Origin: Alphaproteobacteria bacterium
GTDB lineage: Bacteria; Pseudomonadota; Alphaproteobacteria; Reyranellales; Reyranellaceae
Assembly: GCA_010032545.1 (NCBI GenBank)
Contig: RGPT01000007.1
Span: 1-42,966 of the forward strand
Length of the DNA: 42,966 nt
Reading direction: 5' to 3'
The notes under the pieces are model-generated. The model was not told the DNA's origin, made no database searches, and worked only from the letters and a program-made list of their open reading frames with translations. A program made the translations under genes and the position numbers. Shown piece by piece: positions 30,826-33,203 of this stretch (position 1 is its first letter; each line of letters opens with the position of its first letter).

Positions 30826-31914
30826 TCAGGCAGCCGGCCGCGGCCCGACATAGCTCGACTGCGGCCGGATGATGCGCCCGCCCTTCTCCTGCTCGAAGAC
30901 GTGGGCGCACCAGCCCGCCACGCGGCCGACCGCGAACAGGGCGGTGAAGGCGCTCCGCGGAACCTCGAGCGCCTCCAGCAGAAGCGCGGTGTAGTACTCG
31001 ACGTTGGTATCGAGCCTGCGGCCCGGCTTGTGCCGGCGTAGTGCCGCGATGGCGCTCTTCTCGACCTCGACGGCGAAGGCGAGACGTCCCGTCGTCTGCG
31101 GCAGGCTCGCCACGGTGTTCTTCAGCACATCGGCACGCGGGTCGCGCACCTTGTAGATGCGATGGCCGAAACCCATCAGGGTCGTGCCTTTGGAAAAGGC
31201 GTCGTCGAACCAGGCGTCGGCGCGATCGAGCGAGCCGATGTCGTCGAACATGTCGAGCACGGGACCGGGGGCGCCGCCATGGAGCGGCCCTTTGAGAGCG
31301 CAGAGCCCCGCCAACACTGACGAGATCAAGCCGGCGTGTGTCGACGCGACGACGCGCGCCGTAAAGGTCGAGGCATTGAAGCCATGGTCGGCAACGGTCG
31401 CGAGATATGTATCGAGACCCATCTCGAAAACGGCATCTGCACGCTGACCACGGATCATGCGCAGCAGATCCTGCGCGGTCGTAAGCGCGGGATCCGGCGC
31501 CAGAGCCGGCTTGCCGTCGGCGGCCCGCAGGAGGGCGGCGAGAAAGACCGGCAAGGCGCCGCAAGCGAGGTAGTGGTGCGGCATCGGATCGGAATCAGCC
31601 ATCATGCCGAGACCGACGCGCAATCCCTCGACCGGCGTCAGGCCTTGGGTCGCCTGCAACAACGCCGGAACCAATACAAATGCCCGTTCCCGGGCCGCAG
31701 CAAGCCCGTCACGGACGGCAGCCGCGTCGCCCCCGCCGGTCCCATAGCCCTCCCACAGCAGGGCAGCCACGCCTTCGAACCCGCGCGCGGCCACCAATTC
31801 CTCGACCGCGTGCCCGCGCACGATCAGCTGACCGGCCTCGCCGTCGACTTCACTCATCACCGTGTCGGCGACGATCACGCCGTCGAGGCCACTGTTCACC
31901 CGTGTCTGCAGCAT
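30826..31914 (-). CDS. citrate synthase / methylcitrate synthase-like protein
   Basis: A 362-residue citrate-synthase-fold enzyme of the short dimeric (CitZ/PrpC-like) type, condensing acetyl- or propionyl-CoA with oxaloacetate. It shows ADHGFNASTFTARV (H177), LHGGA (H212), MGFGHRIYKVRDPRA (H251) and a closing VAGWCAHVFEQ. The third member of the usual His-His-Asp triad is glutamate: NVEYY (E306) instead of NVDFY. GGGGGAT before the ATG supports the start. It is divergent from a fused HTH-citrate synthase. Its promoter carries a 20-bp spacer with a central dyad, suggesting control by that neighbour. A methylcitrate synthase or non-canonical synthase role is possible. Confidence 0.9.
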   Translation of the reverse strand: MLQTRVNSGLDGVIVADTVMSEVDGEAGQLIVRGHAVEELVAARGFEGVAALLWEGYGTGGGDAAAVRDGLAAARERAFVLVPALLQATQGLTPVEGLRVGLGMMADSDPMPHHYLACGALPVFLAALLRAADGKPALAPDPALTTAQDLLRMIRGQRADAVFEMGLDTYLATVADHGFNASTFTARVVASTHAGLISSVLAGLCALKGPLHGGAPGPVLDMFDDIGSLDRADAWFDDAFSKGTTLMGFGHRIYKVRDPRADVLKNTVASLPQTTGRLAFAVEVEKSAIAALRRHKPGRRLDTNVEYYTALLLEALEVPRSAFTALFAVGRVAGWCAHVFEQEKGGRIIRPQSSYVGPRPAA

Positions 31915-31957
31915 CGGATCCCCCTTGTTTGCACGGCCGGGAACGTCGTTCTGATGA

Positions 31958-31995
31958 AATATATTGTCAATCTTGATTGCATTGATCAATATATT
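31958..31995 (-). promoter_or_regulatory. MerR-type promoter/operator of the citrate synthase gene
   Basis: Reading leftward, TTGATC (31989-31984) and TATATT (31963-31958) form a -35/-10 pair with a 20-bp spacer, too long for unaided RNA polymerase. The spacer centre (31973.5) coincides exactly with the centre of the dyad CAATC-TT-GATTG (31968-31979). An outer repeat AATATATTG / CAATATATT (31958-31966, 31987-31995) flanks it. MerR-family activators bind just such dyads inside 19-20-bp spacers. The fused HTH-citrate synthase starts at 31998, beside this site, so autoregulation is also likely. Identified by eye only. Confidence 0.6.
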
Positions 31996-31997
31996 AC

Positions 31998-33203
31998 ATG
32001 GCATTGGAACTTCTGACCTCCAAGGAGGCCGCGCGGCGGCTGGGCGTGTCGGCCGCGACACTCTACGCTTACGTCAGCCGGGGTTACCTGCGCTCCGAGG
32101 CGGTCGATGGCAGCCGCGAGCGGCGCTATCGCGCCGACGACGTCGTCCGCCTGAGGCGCCGGCGCGATGTCGGGCGCAAAGCCGAGTCGATCGCCAATCA
32201 CGCGCTCGACTTCGGCACGCCTGTCCTTGAATCGGCCCTTACGTTGATCGAGGACGGGCGACTCTATTACCGCGGCGTCGACGCCGCCGGGTTGGCGCGC
32301 ACGGCGTCGCTGGAAGACGTCGCCCGCCTGCTGTGGGCGTGCGACGACAAGCCCTTCGCCGCCGCGAATATGCCGCCGCTTACGACGGCACTGCGCCGCG
32401 CCTGGATTGCCGCCGCCACCCTGTCGCCGCCCGATCGCTGCCTCGTGCTGTTGCCGGCCGCGGCCGCGCTCGACCACCCGAGCTGGGTCGAAGACCGCAC
32501 CGCCATGCTGGAGACCGCCGTGCGCGTGCTGCGCCTGCTGACTGCAGCCGTGACGGCCCGGCCGATATCGGCCCTGCCCGTCCACGAACAGCTCGCGACG
32601 GCTTGGCGCGTGCCACCTGACCGCGTGCCGGTGCTGCGCGCTACCCTGGTGCTCCTGGCCGATCACGAATTCAACGCCTCGGCTTTTGCCGCCCGCGTCG
32701 TGGCCTCGACCGGCGCCAACCTCTACGGCGCGACGATGGCGGGCCTGGCGGCGCTGAACGGTCCGCGGCATGGCGGTGCCACACGCCGGGTCGCAGCGAT
32801 GTTCGACGACCTCCGGCACAGCACCGACCTCGATGCCGAACTCGCCCGCAAGCTGCGCGCCCGTGTCTACATCCCGGGCTTCGGCCACCAGCTCTATCCC
32901 GACGGTGATATTCGCGCCGTCACACTGATGGCCGCGTTGCGCGCGGCGATGCCGGACTCGGCCGAACTGGCCTATGCCGACCGGCTGTCGGCCGCGGTCG
33001 AGGGGTTGATCGACCGCAAGGCCAATATCGATTTCGCCAATGTGACAGTCGAGCGCGTGCTCGGCCTTCCCAAGGATTCGGCTCTGGCCCTCTTCCTGCT
33101 CGGCCGCACGGTCGGCTGGATCGCCCATGCCCTGGAGCAGGCCGCGCACGGAGCCTTGATCCGTCCACGCGCCCGCTACACCGGGCCGCGTCCGGGCGCG
33201 TAG
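31998..33203 (+). CDS. HTH-citrate synthase fusion, candidate metabolite-sensing regulator
   Basis: A 401-residue two-domain protein. Residues 5-56 form a MerR/excisionase-type winged HTH (TSKEAARRLGVSAATLYAYV, then RGYLRSEAVDGSRERRYRAD). Residues 75-400 form a citrate-synthase fold with DHEFNASAFAARVVAST (H223), NGPRHGG (H258), GFGHQLYPDGD (H297) and NIDF (D345), thus an intact His-His-Asp triad, closing GWIAHALEQAAHG. It is divergent from the stand-alone citrate synthase and adjoins a MerR-like operator, so a role as transcription regulator that senses acyl-CoA or oxaloacetate, perhaps also catalytic, is likely but unproven. No Shine-Dalgarno precedes the ATG, which lies 2 bases beyond the outer palindrome. 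Confidence 0.88.
   Translation: MALELLTSKEAARRLGVSAATLYAYVSRGYLRSEAVDGSRERRYRADDVVRLRRRRDVGRKAESIANHALDFGTPVLESALTLIEDGRLYYRGVDAAGLARTASLEDVARLLWACDDKPFAAANMPPLTTALRRAWIAAATLSPPDRCLVLLPAAAALDHPSWVEDRTAMLETAVRVLRLLTAAVTARPISALPVHEQLATAWRVPPDRVPVLRATLVLLADHEFNASAFAARVVASTGANLYGATMAGLAALNGPRHGGATRRVAAMFDDLRHSTDLDAELARKLRARVYIPGFGHQLYPDGDIRAVTLMAALRAAMPDSAELAYADRLSAAVEGLIDRKANIDFANVTVERVLGLPKDSALALFLLGRTVGWIAHALEQAAHGALIRPRARYTGPRPGA

Follow-up and report, generated by a model that had tools for sequence, protein, structure and literature searches.

The locus analysed here raises the question of why a citrate synthase should carry a DNA-binding head, and what such a protein does next to a second citrate synthase gene. 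In the window (the whole 42,966-nucleotide stretch of DNA that was analysed), a gene coding for a helix-turn-helix (HTH) domain fused to a citrate synthase (CS) domain (called HTH-CS hereafter; product P0002, start at 31998) and a gene coding for a stand-alone CS (product P0001, start ATG at 31914) form a divergent pair with 83 bp between them (Table 1). A sequence-only reading of this DNA had proposed a metabolite-gated switch, in which the fusion senses a ligand through its enzyme fold and activates the neighbouring gene in the manner of MerR proteins by untwisting its promoter. Our comparison of related loci retains the first half of this proposal: the fusion very probably serves as a regulator that acts on the shared intergenic region, as a conserved site tracks HTH-CS. 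Untwisting of the MerR type did not hold up as the general mechanism.

Table 1. Features of the divergent locus (positions in the window)
Feature	Position	Strand	Basis or remark
CitA-type citrate synthase gene P0001, 362 aa, divergent target	30826..31914	-	NF009005/PRK12350
HTH-citrate synthase fusion gene P0002, 401 aa, proposed regulator	31998..33203	+	Pfam domains
Conserved predicted operator, 28 bp	31966..31993	+	comparison of upstream regions
Half-site A, GTCAA	31966..31970	.	overlaps proposed CS −35; conserved A/B pairs
Half-site B, TTGAT	31973..31977	.	conserved A/B and B/C pairs
Half-site C, ATCAA	31985..31989	.	one base closer to B in matching loci of five other phyla
Proposed CS −35, TTGACA	31965..31970	-	TTGA[CT] is half-site A on the opposite strand
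Proposed CS −10, GACGTT, 17-bp spacer	31942..31947	-	A2/T6 peak at spacer 17
−10 of the sequence-only reading, TATATT, 20-bp spacer; possible genus-specific alternative	31958..31963	-	A2/T6 in 9/15 genus clusters
Possible HTH-CS −35, TTGTCA	31964..31969	+	placed by its 17 bp from CAATAT; overlaps operator, not independent
Possible HTH-CS −10, CAATAT	31987..31992	+	A2/T6 at offset; overlaps half-site C

The two genes of the pair

P0001 is a CitA-type synthase, with a score of 392.6 bits against NF009005/PRK12350 (curated cut-off 332). The solved structure closest to it in sequence is 2c6x, citrate synthase 1 of Bacillus subtilis, and a printed alignment of the two places a Glu at the position expected for the catalytic Asp in both proteins.

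The product of the divergent gene proved to be, as the sequence-only reading had stated, a MerR-type HTH followed by a full citrate synthase domain. Residues 5-56 of P0002 match Pfam MerR_1 and HTH_17, both above cut-off, and the head reaches 34.5 bits against PF13411 (cut-off 21.6), which identifies an N-terminal MerR-type winged helix. Residues 73-391 match PF00285 with 215.2 bits (cut-off 27). P0002 is below the cut-off of every matching NCBIfam enzyme model, its head scores 27.4 bits against TIGR01764 (cut-off 28.8), and PADLOC returned only a match of the head domain to mad1. The AF2 model (mean pLDDT 86.5) has methylcitrate and citrate synthases as its best structural matches (top Z 33.8, many tied). 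Residues 59-75, the linker between head and putative sensor in which we looked for a MerR dimerization helix, have pLDDT values below 50. Since the large domain fills the match list of the whole protein, the head was folded alone; its matches include Xis (Z 8.2), SoxR (Z 8.0) and BldC (Z 7.5), tied with others. Foldseek ranked SoxR first at E 4.4e-3 and gave no match for the head with E < 0.001.

Citrate synthase domains were matched four times in the genome (4.59 Mb, 567 contigs), and two of these matches are the divergent pair. With a possible methylcitrate synthase role of P0001 in view, we looked for other Prp proteins: the genome codes for a PrpB on contig C546 (433.5 bits, above cut-off), and all four citrate synthase matches are found on other contigs; no PrpD over its cut-off was detected in this genome. 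The nine nearest named relatives among the matches listed have 73-87% identity, and five of them are labelled Reyranella. Neighbours of the pair between 28029 and 37154 include a dioxygenase-like ORF and a YceI-like protein, both below family cut-offs, and, downstream, pyrB, a dihydroorotase gene and plsY.

A conserved putative operator upstream of the fusion gene

We found HTH-CS matches (E ≤ 1e-50) in 69 of 75 genomes of the family. The divergent pair is present in 66 of 70 family loci; the exceptions are one locus that ends at a contig end (L012) and three paralogues without the pair (L072-L074). The gap measures 81-89 bp in 63 of the 66 pairs (start codons were set by alignment, and lengths are approximate in a few), with the same block directly before the HTH-CS start. 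Comparison of upstream regions defined there a predicted operator of 28 bp, with the pattern [GA]TCAAT.TTGATT......ATCAATATA at 31966-31993 and the consensus, indexed from the G at 31966, [GA]TCAAT.TTGAT[TC]......ATCAA[TC].TA. It comprises three half-sites: the A/B and B/C pairs are inverted, and A and C repeat directly at a distance of 19 bp.

Of 191 distinct regions preceding HTH-CS, taken from 208 loci, 182 contain the site with a score of at least 16/20, compared with 3/955 dinucleotide shuffles and 0/151 coding stretches, a frequency well above chance; for this count identical upstream regions were removed, and the consensus was drawn partly from the loci then scored. The 208 loci, like the 166 HTH-CS rows used below, include near-copies and repeats (G431, for instance, corresponds to L102, L187 and L235, and the window locus itself is present twice, as L005 and L184). 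Most loci are related, and the counts are not of independent events.

Fresh tests of the operator are thus limited to the beta, gamma and other-phylum loci scored with a consensus derived from alphaproteobacteria. At a threshold of 15/20, and among the 80 named loci, which are the best 80 of at least 588 confirmed, that consensus matches 31/31 alpha, 33/33 beta and 7/7 gamma loci, and one locus of an unclassed proteobacterium. The eight loci of the same set in Acidobacteriota, Actinomycetota, Chloroflexota, Deinococcota and Gemmatimonadota score 9-13 at the original spacing (0/8 match), and seven of them score 18-20 when B and C are brought one base closer, a variant admitted after these loci had been seen. 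L157 has no site at either spacing, the sole such locus among these best 80 of at least 588. The site was also present in eight of nine newly fetched HTH-CS loci, the ninth ending at a contig end, and the paralogous fusions L072, L073 and L074 (34-37% identity) have it ~60 bp upstream at the one-base-shorter spacing. A search of the window genome at the original spacing returned exactly one site with at most three mismatches.

Between A and B, the four inner pairs are kept in 97-100% of loci and the outermost one in 25-49%. The B/C pairs hold in 93-100% of the 116 loci from outside the genus, except for the outermost (0.60), and in 0.28-1.00 of loci within it. Complete A/B dyads occur in 14/57 genus, 56/116 other and 4/12 shorter-spaced loci, and complete B/C dyads in 2/57, 66/116 and 4/12, respectively. 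The sequence-only reading had singled out a smaller dyad, CAATC-TT-GATTG (31968-31979), as the regulatory element. Its five pairs are intact in 2/57 genus, 7/116 other and 1/12 shorter-spaced loci; alignment of orthologous intergenic regions, the check then suggested, therefore revealed a larger conserved operator and not the dyad as it had been drawn. Lack of dyad conservation among orthologues, which that reading had named as a refutation, thus applies to its own dyad and leaves the whole operator unaffected.

Three family loci have longer intergenic gaps, of 154 bp (L019), 763 bp (L022) and 764 bp (L027). The full site stays beside the CS gene in all three, and a partial site is found beside HTH-CS, with A/B matches of 11, 9 and 9 of 11, respectively; a match of 9 was reached by 12 of 812 control windows. 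This arrangement is what would be expected if both genes were controlled.

Two other candidate elements were discarded. A palindrome with TATA flanks, its centre between the two −10 elements, is complete in only 12/57 genus, 6/116 other and 0/12 shorter-spaced loci, and BldC-like 9-bp direct repeats were noticed, by eye, solely in members of the genus.

The conserved site follows the fusion through changes of target

We analysed the genes facing HTH-CS in 110 loci (the best named loci of at least 588, plus those of phylum genomes, with a few repeats and the window locus itself included). A divergent CS gene is present within 400 bp in 53 of them. The remaining 57 comprise 40 loci with a CoA-transferase III gene, 10 with prpB, one with a CitMHS transporter gene and six without an assigned neighbour. 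Targets were assigned by tblastn and representatives named by Pfam and NCBIfam, the representative PrpB scoring 411.1 bits (cut-off 354.4). Six of the ten prpB loci, which are those among the matches listed, belong to named Lysobacterales genomes, and an extra CS-type gene lies behind prpB in five of the ten (the sequence stretch is too short in some others). In two alpha loci the same kind of CoA-transferase faces HTH-CS (L220, by eye; L225, by Pfam). A DUF2332 gene does so in L221 and L223 (by eye) and L224 (by Pfam), with a cupin-like ORF in between in L223. The operator is thus present with five kinds of divergent neighbours, namely genes for CitA-type CS, CoA-transferase III, PrpB, a citrate transporter and DUF2332 proteins.

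In the CoA-transferase III proteins of L122 and L130, the first half of the Pfam profile matches the second half of the protein, and these two enzymes may be circularly permuted.

HTH-CS matches were obtained in 41 of 385 genomes of the class (E ≤ 1e-50) and 51 of 398 genomes of the phylum (E ≤ 1e-70). A CS partner with at least 49% identity is encoded in 31 of the 385 class genomes, and all 31 also have HTH-CS. Ten of the 41 class genomes with HTH-CS lack the partner, although in at least one of them (G221) the locus ends at a contig end. Upstream of six CS genes from genomes without HTH-CS (three genera) the site was absent (0/6), with shuffle-like scores of 13-15; these are distant synthases of 37-40% identity, not orthologues. 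In a tree of HTH-CS proteins we counted at least four changes of target among 77 rows with a named target, three being the least possible, and 11 if the seven rows without a target are counted. This tree was built from 86 rows by a quick method, with 30 of its 84 inner branches open, and L144 and L210 were left out of the count. On these comparisons, the site follows the HTH-CS fusion and not the synthase. As the same site is found beside the fusion across several phyla, before genes of small-acid metabolism, HTH-CS very probably works as a gene switch.

An intact citrate synthase pocket as a putative sensor

We next examined residue conservation in the 166 HTH-CS rows. In the head, L15, L22, Y23, S27, R28 and Y44 have a conservation of 1.00. 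In the body, H223, H258, R306, R370 and R389 are present in 166/166 rows, D345 in 165/166 and H297 in 161/166. The alignment thus places in HTH-CS the catalytic His/His/Asp and the oxaloacetate-binding arginines of the citrate synthase superfamily, roles that we take to be those assigned by alignment and the numbering of pig citrate synthase. Both the head and the body are strongly constrained. Five rows (four genomes) have lost H297 and retain the pocket arginines, suggesting that the wider constraint acts on binding rather than on turnover. The synthases encoded on the partner side have a Glu in place of the catalytic Asp in 95 of 101 cases, and the fusion keeps the Asp. The remaining six comprise five PrpC-type genes and, at L086, a distant neighbour of 29% identity.

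In the HTH-CS of one genome (L101/L195), a Gln replaces the catalytic His, and neither the operator nor a synthase neighbour was found at that locus; it is perhaps a decaying or retargeted copy.

Our preferred reading, to which we give a probability of about 0.58, is that HTH-CS is a one-component regulator that uses an intact citrate synthase pocket as its sensor and probably represses both itself and its neighbour. The operator, its link with HTH-CS, the swapping of targets, the intact pocket and the 17-bp −10 pattern described below come from the comparison of loci. We infer DNA binding by HTH-CS, the geometry of its dimer, the identity of its ligand and repression in preference to activation, as follows. 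The winged helix would bind the three TTGAT-like half-sites of the operator between the two divergent genes. Half-site A would lie on the −35 of the neighbour, and the probable −10 of HTH-CS would coincide with half-site C; with this placement, the bound protein would most likely repress both genes. The citrate synthase domain would serve as both dimerization unit and sensor. The citrate synthase fold undergoes ligand-driven closure, as is known for the family. Binding of oxaloacetate and/or acyl-CoA, or of citrate or 2-methylcitrate, would close the fold, shift the paired heads and change DNA binding. Repression would thereby be relieved or altered, and the neighbour would be expressed when the pool of its substrate or product calls for it.

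The enzyme fold may plausibly act as a sensor, because the pocket residues are near-invariant and most target genes belong to acyl-CoA, methylcitrate or citrate metabolism: four of the five kinds of target, namely citrate synthase, CoA-transferase, PrpB/PrpC and the citrate transporter, handle such compounds, which fits the pocket. Against the regulator reading stands the retention of the catalytic residues, with which an active enzyme would be compatible. In a bolder version, which we put forward tentatively, HTH-CS would be a flux-reading trigger enzyme, a working (methyl)citrate synthase whose catalytic open or closed state sets DNA binding, the pair of head and operator having been kept across six phyla while targets were exchanged several times.

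Promoter geometry and direction of control

We compared promoter positions in clusters (<60% identity), dropping loci that score <15 (L012, L022, L027, L100, L101 and L157); the group of other CS genes also counts L086, with a neighbour that matches at just 29%. As TTGA[CT] is half-site A read in reverse, conservation of the proposed −35 is not independent of the operator, and only the −10 counts. With a 17-bp spacer, A2 and T6 of the −10 are present in 11/15 genus, 24/52 other CS, 16/24 CoA-transferase and 4/4 prpB clusters. Nearby spacers mostly give 0-0.17, the exceptions being 0.33 at 16 bp (CoA-transferase), 0.27 at 18 bp (genus) and 0.50 at 19 bp (the four prpB clusters). The value of just 24/52 in CS clusters outside the genus counts against the 17-bp promoter, as does a poor overall match of its −10 to TATAAT (means of 2.00-3.00 of 6). 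Mean matches for the 20-bp versus the 17-bp −10 are 3.80 versus 2.00 in the genus, 2.50 versus 2.15 for other CS, 1.96 versus 2.71 for CoA-transferase and 1.00 versus 3.00 for prpB clusters. A hexamer 15 bp from the TTGATC −35 has A2 and T6 in 12/15, 31/52, 14/24 and 0/4 clusters, respectively, and overlaps half-site A; 17 bp from TTGATC they occur in 8/15 genus clusters. A consensus scan of the locus for sigma-70 sites with spacers of 16-18 bp returned none, so both readings of the CS promoter rest on comparison and not on strong matches. The CS promoter of the window is best read as TTGACA (31970-31965), a 17-bp spacer and GACGTT (31947-31942).

On the HTH-CS side, A2 and T6 are present at the −10 offset in 0.66-0.80 of clusters, and a Shine-Dalgarno-like motif is absent before HTH-CS in 56 of 57 same-genus loci. 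With a −10 at 31987-31992, the ATG at 31998 would be leaderless. HTH-CS probably has its −10 at CAATAT, letters that also belong to the operator, and a leaderless message.

The same geometry could be used for activation without distortion of the spacer: the regulator would sit on B and C upstream of the 17-bp −35, aid RNA polymerase and repress its own gene. With the 17-bp promoter, the implied start would be ~46 bp downstream of the centre of the B/C dyad, and the weak −10 is like those of activated promoters. However, half-site A would lie on the −35 itself, and the A-B spacing is fixed in all groups while that of B-C varies by one base, two features that would better suit occlusion. We consider activation of this kind doubtful.

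Less probable still is the mechanism of the sequence-only reading, in which a MerR-type activator would untwist a CS promoter with a 20-bp spacer around a central dyad. The elements themselves are there: TTGATC (31989-31984) and TATATT (31963-31958) lie 20 bp apart on the minus strand, and this promoter shares its centre, 31973.5, exactly with the dyad. SoxR and other MerR proteins are among the matches of the head, the 20-bp −10 has its A2 and T6 in 9/15 genus clusters, and within the genus this −10 surpasses the 17-bp position in its TATAAT match. Outside the genus, however, the frequency falls to 5/52 other CS, 1/24 CoA-transferase and 0/4 prpB clusters, whereas the 17-bp pattern is found in all four groups, and the central dyad is seldom intact (see above). 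Among the clusters compared, the predicted placement of an operator inside a 19-20 bp target spacer, as for classical MerR proteins, is frequent in the genus of the window and rare elsewhere. We thus discarded the 20-bp promoter as a general mechanism, given that the 17-bp pattern is shared across targets; the genus may use the 20-bp form as well or instead, and untwisting is possible there.

It is also improbable that HTH-CS is mainly an enzyme, or forms mixed oligomers with the Glu-bearing CS partner, with DNA binding as a side activity or for autoregulation only. The nearly complete set of catalytic residues, the Glu of the partner-side synthases and the fact that none of the 385 class genomes has the CS partner (at least 49% identity) without HTH-CS are consistent with that view; the fusions without a CS partner, those with the same operator beside unrelated targets and the five rows devoid of H297 argue against it. 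Finally, binding of HTH-CS to the 28-bp site is predicted, so the site might belong to another regulator and lie here by chance, but this is hardly credible given its single copy in the window genome, its tracking of HTH-CS through at least four target changes and across phyla, and its absence upstream of CS in six genomes of three genera without HTH-CS.

Relation to known systems

If the preferred reading is correct, a regulator derived from citrate synthase would read the acyl-CoA/oxaloacetate branch point directly. Its operator is defined, its target genes are several and its fold itself suggests candidate ligands; it could be a starting point for tools that sense acetyl-CoA or propionyl-CoA, and would change the annotation of genes for HTH-citrate synthase fusions. 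Enzyme-derived regulators as such are known. In the open-licence literature searched, we found no characterized HTH-citrate synthase regulator and no precedent for a complete citrate synthase as a regulator with a cross-phylum operator and swapped targets. A protein named citrate synthase-like, sco5831, appears in a table of one article (PMC7324645).

A comparative analysis from 2012, devoted to propionate and malonate regulation in proteobacteria, may, reportedly, have predicted a regulator at prpB genes of Xanthomonadales. PrpR of Xanthomonas citri is a repressor encoded upstream of prpB, with the motif GTTGCAA-N2-TTGCAAC (PMC12153269). HTH-CS at prpB has the same type of position and a different motif.

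Like the classical MerR regulators SoxR, BmrR and CueR, HTH-CS has an N-terminal winged helix followed by a C-terminal domain, which varies among such proteins. It differs from them in that this domain is a complete citrate synthase and in the 17-bp spacer of the promoter pattern found across its targets, the promoters of classical MerR targets having 19-20 bp (PMC5859096). The closest single-domain folds to the head are those of Pukovnik Xis (Z 8.2) and BldC (Z 7.5). BldC is described as devoid of effector and dimerization domains and as binding direct repeats (PMC5859096). For HTH-CS, binding of direct repeats as head-to-tail multimers would find mixed ground in the operator: the conserved A/B and B/C half-sites are inverted, and A and C form a direct repeat.

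The pair itself recalls citR-citA of Bacillus subtilis, in which a CitA-type synthase gene is divergent from that of a dedicated regulator. CitR is a LysR-type protein, not one based on citrate synthase. P0001 has 2c6x of that organism as its nearest solved structure by sequence and shares its Glu at the Asp position. HTH-CS itself shares the fold of PrpC and GltA (Z 33.8 with the methylcitrate synthase of Mycobacterium tuberculosis) and their active-site residues, and it is set apart from them by its additional DNA-binding head and by scores below the NCBIfam enzyme cut-offs.
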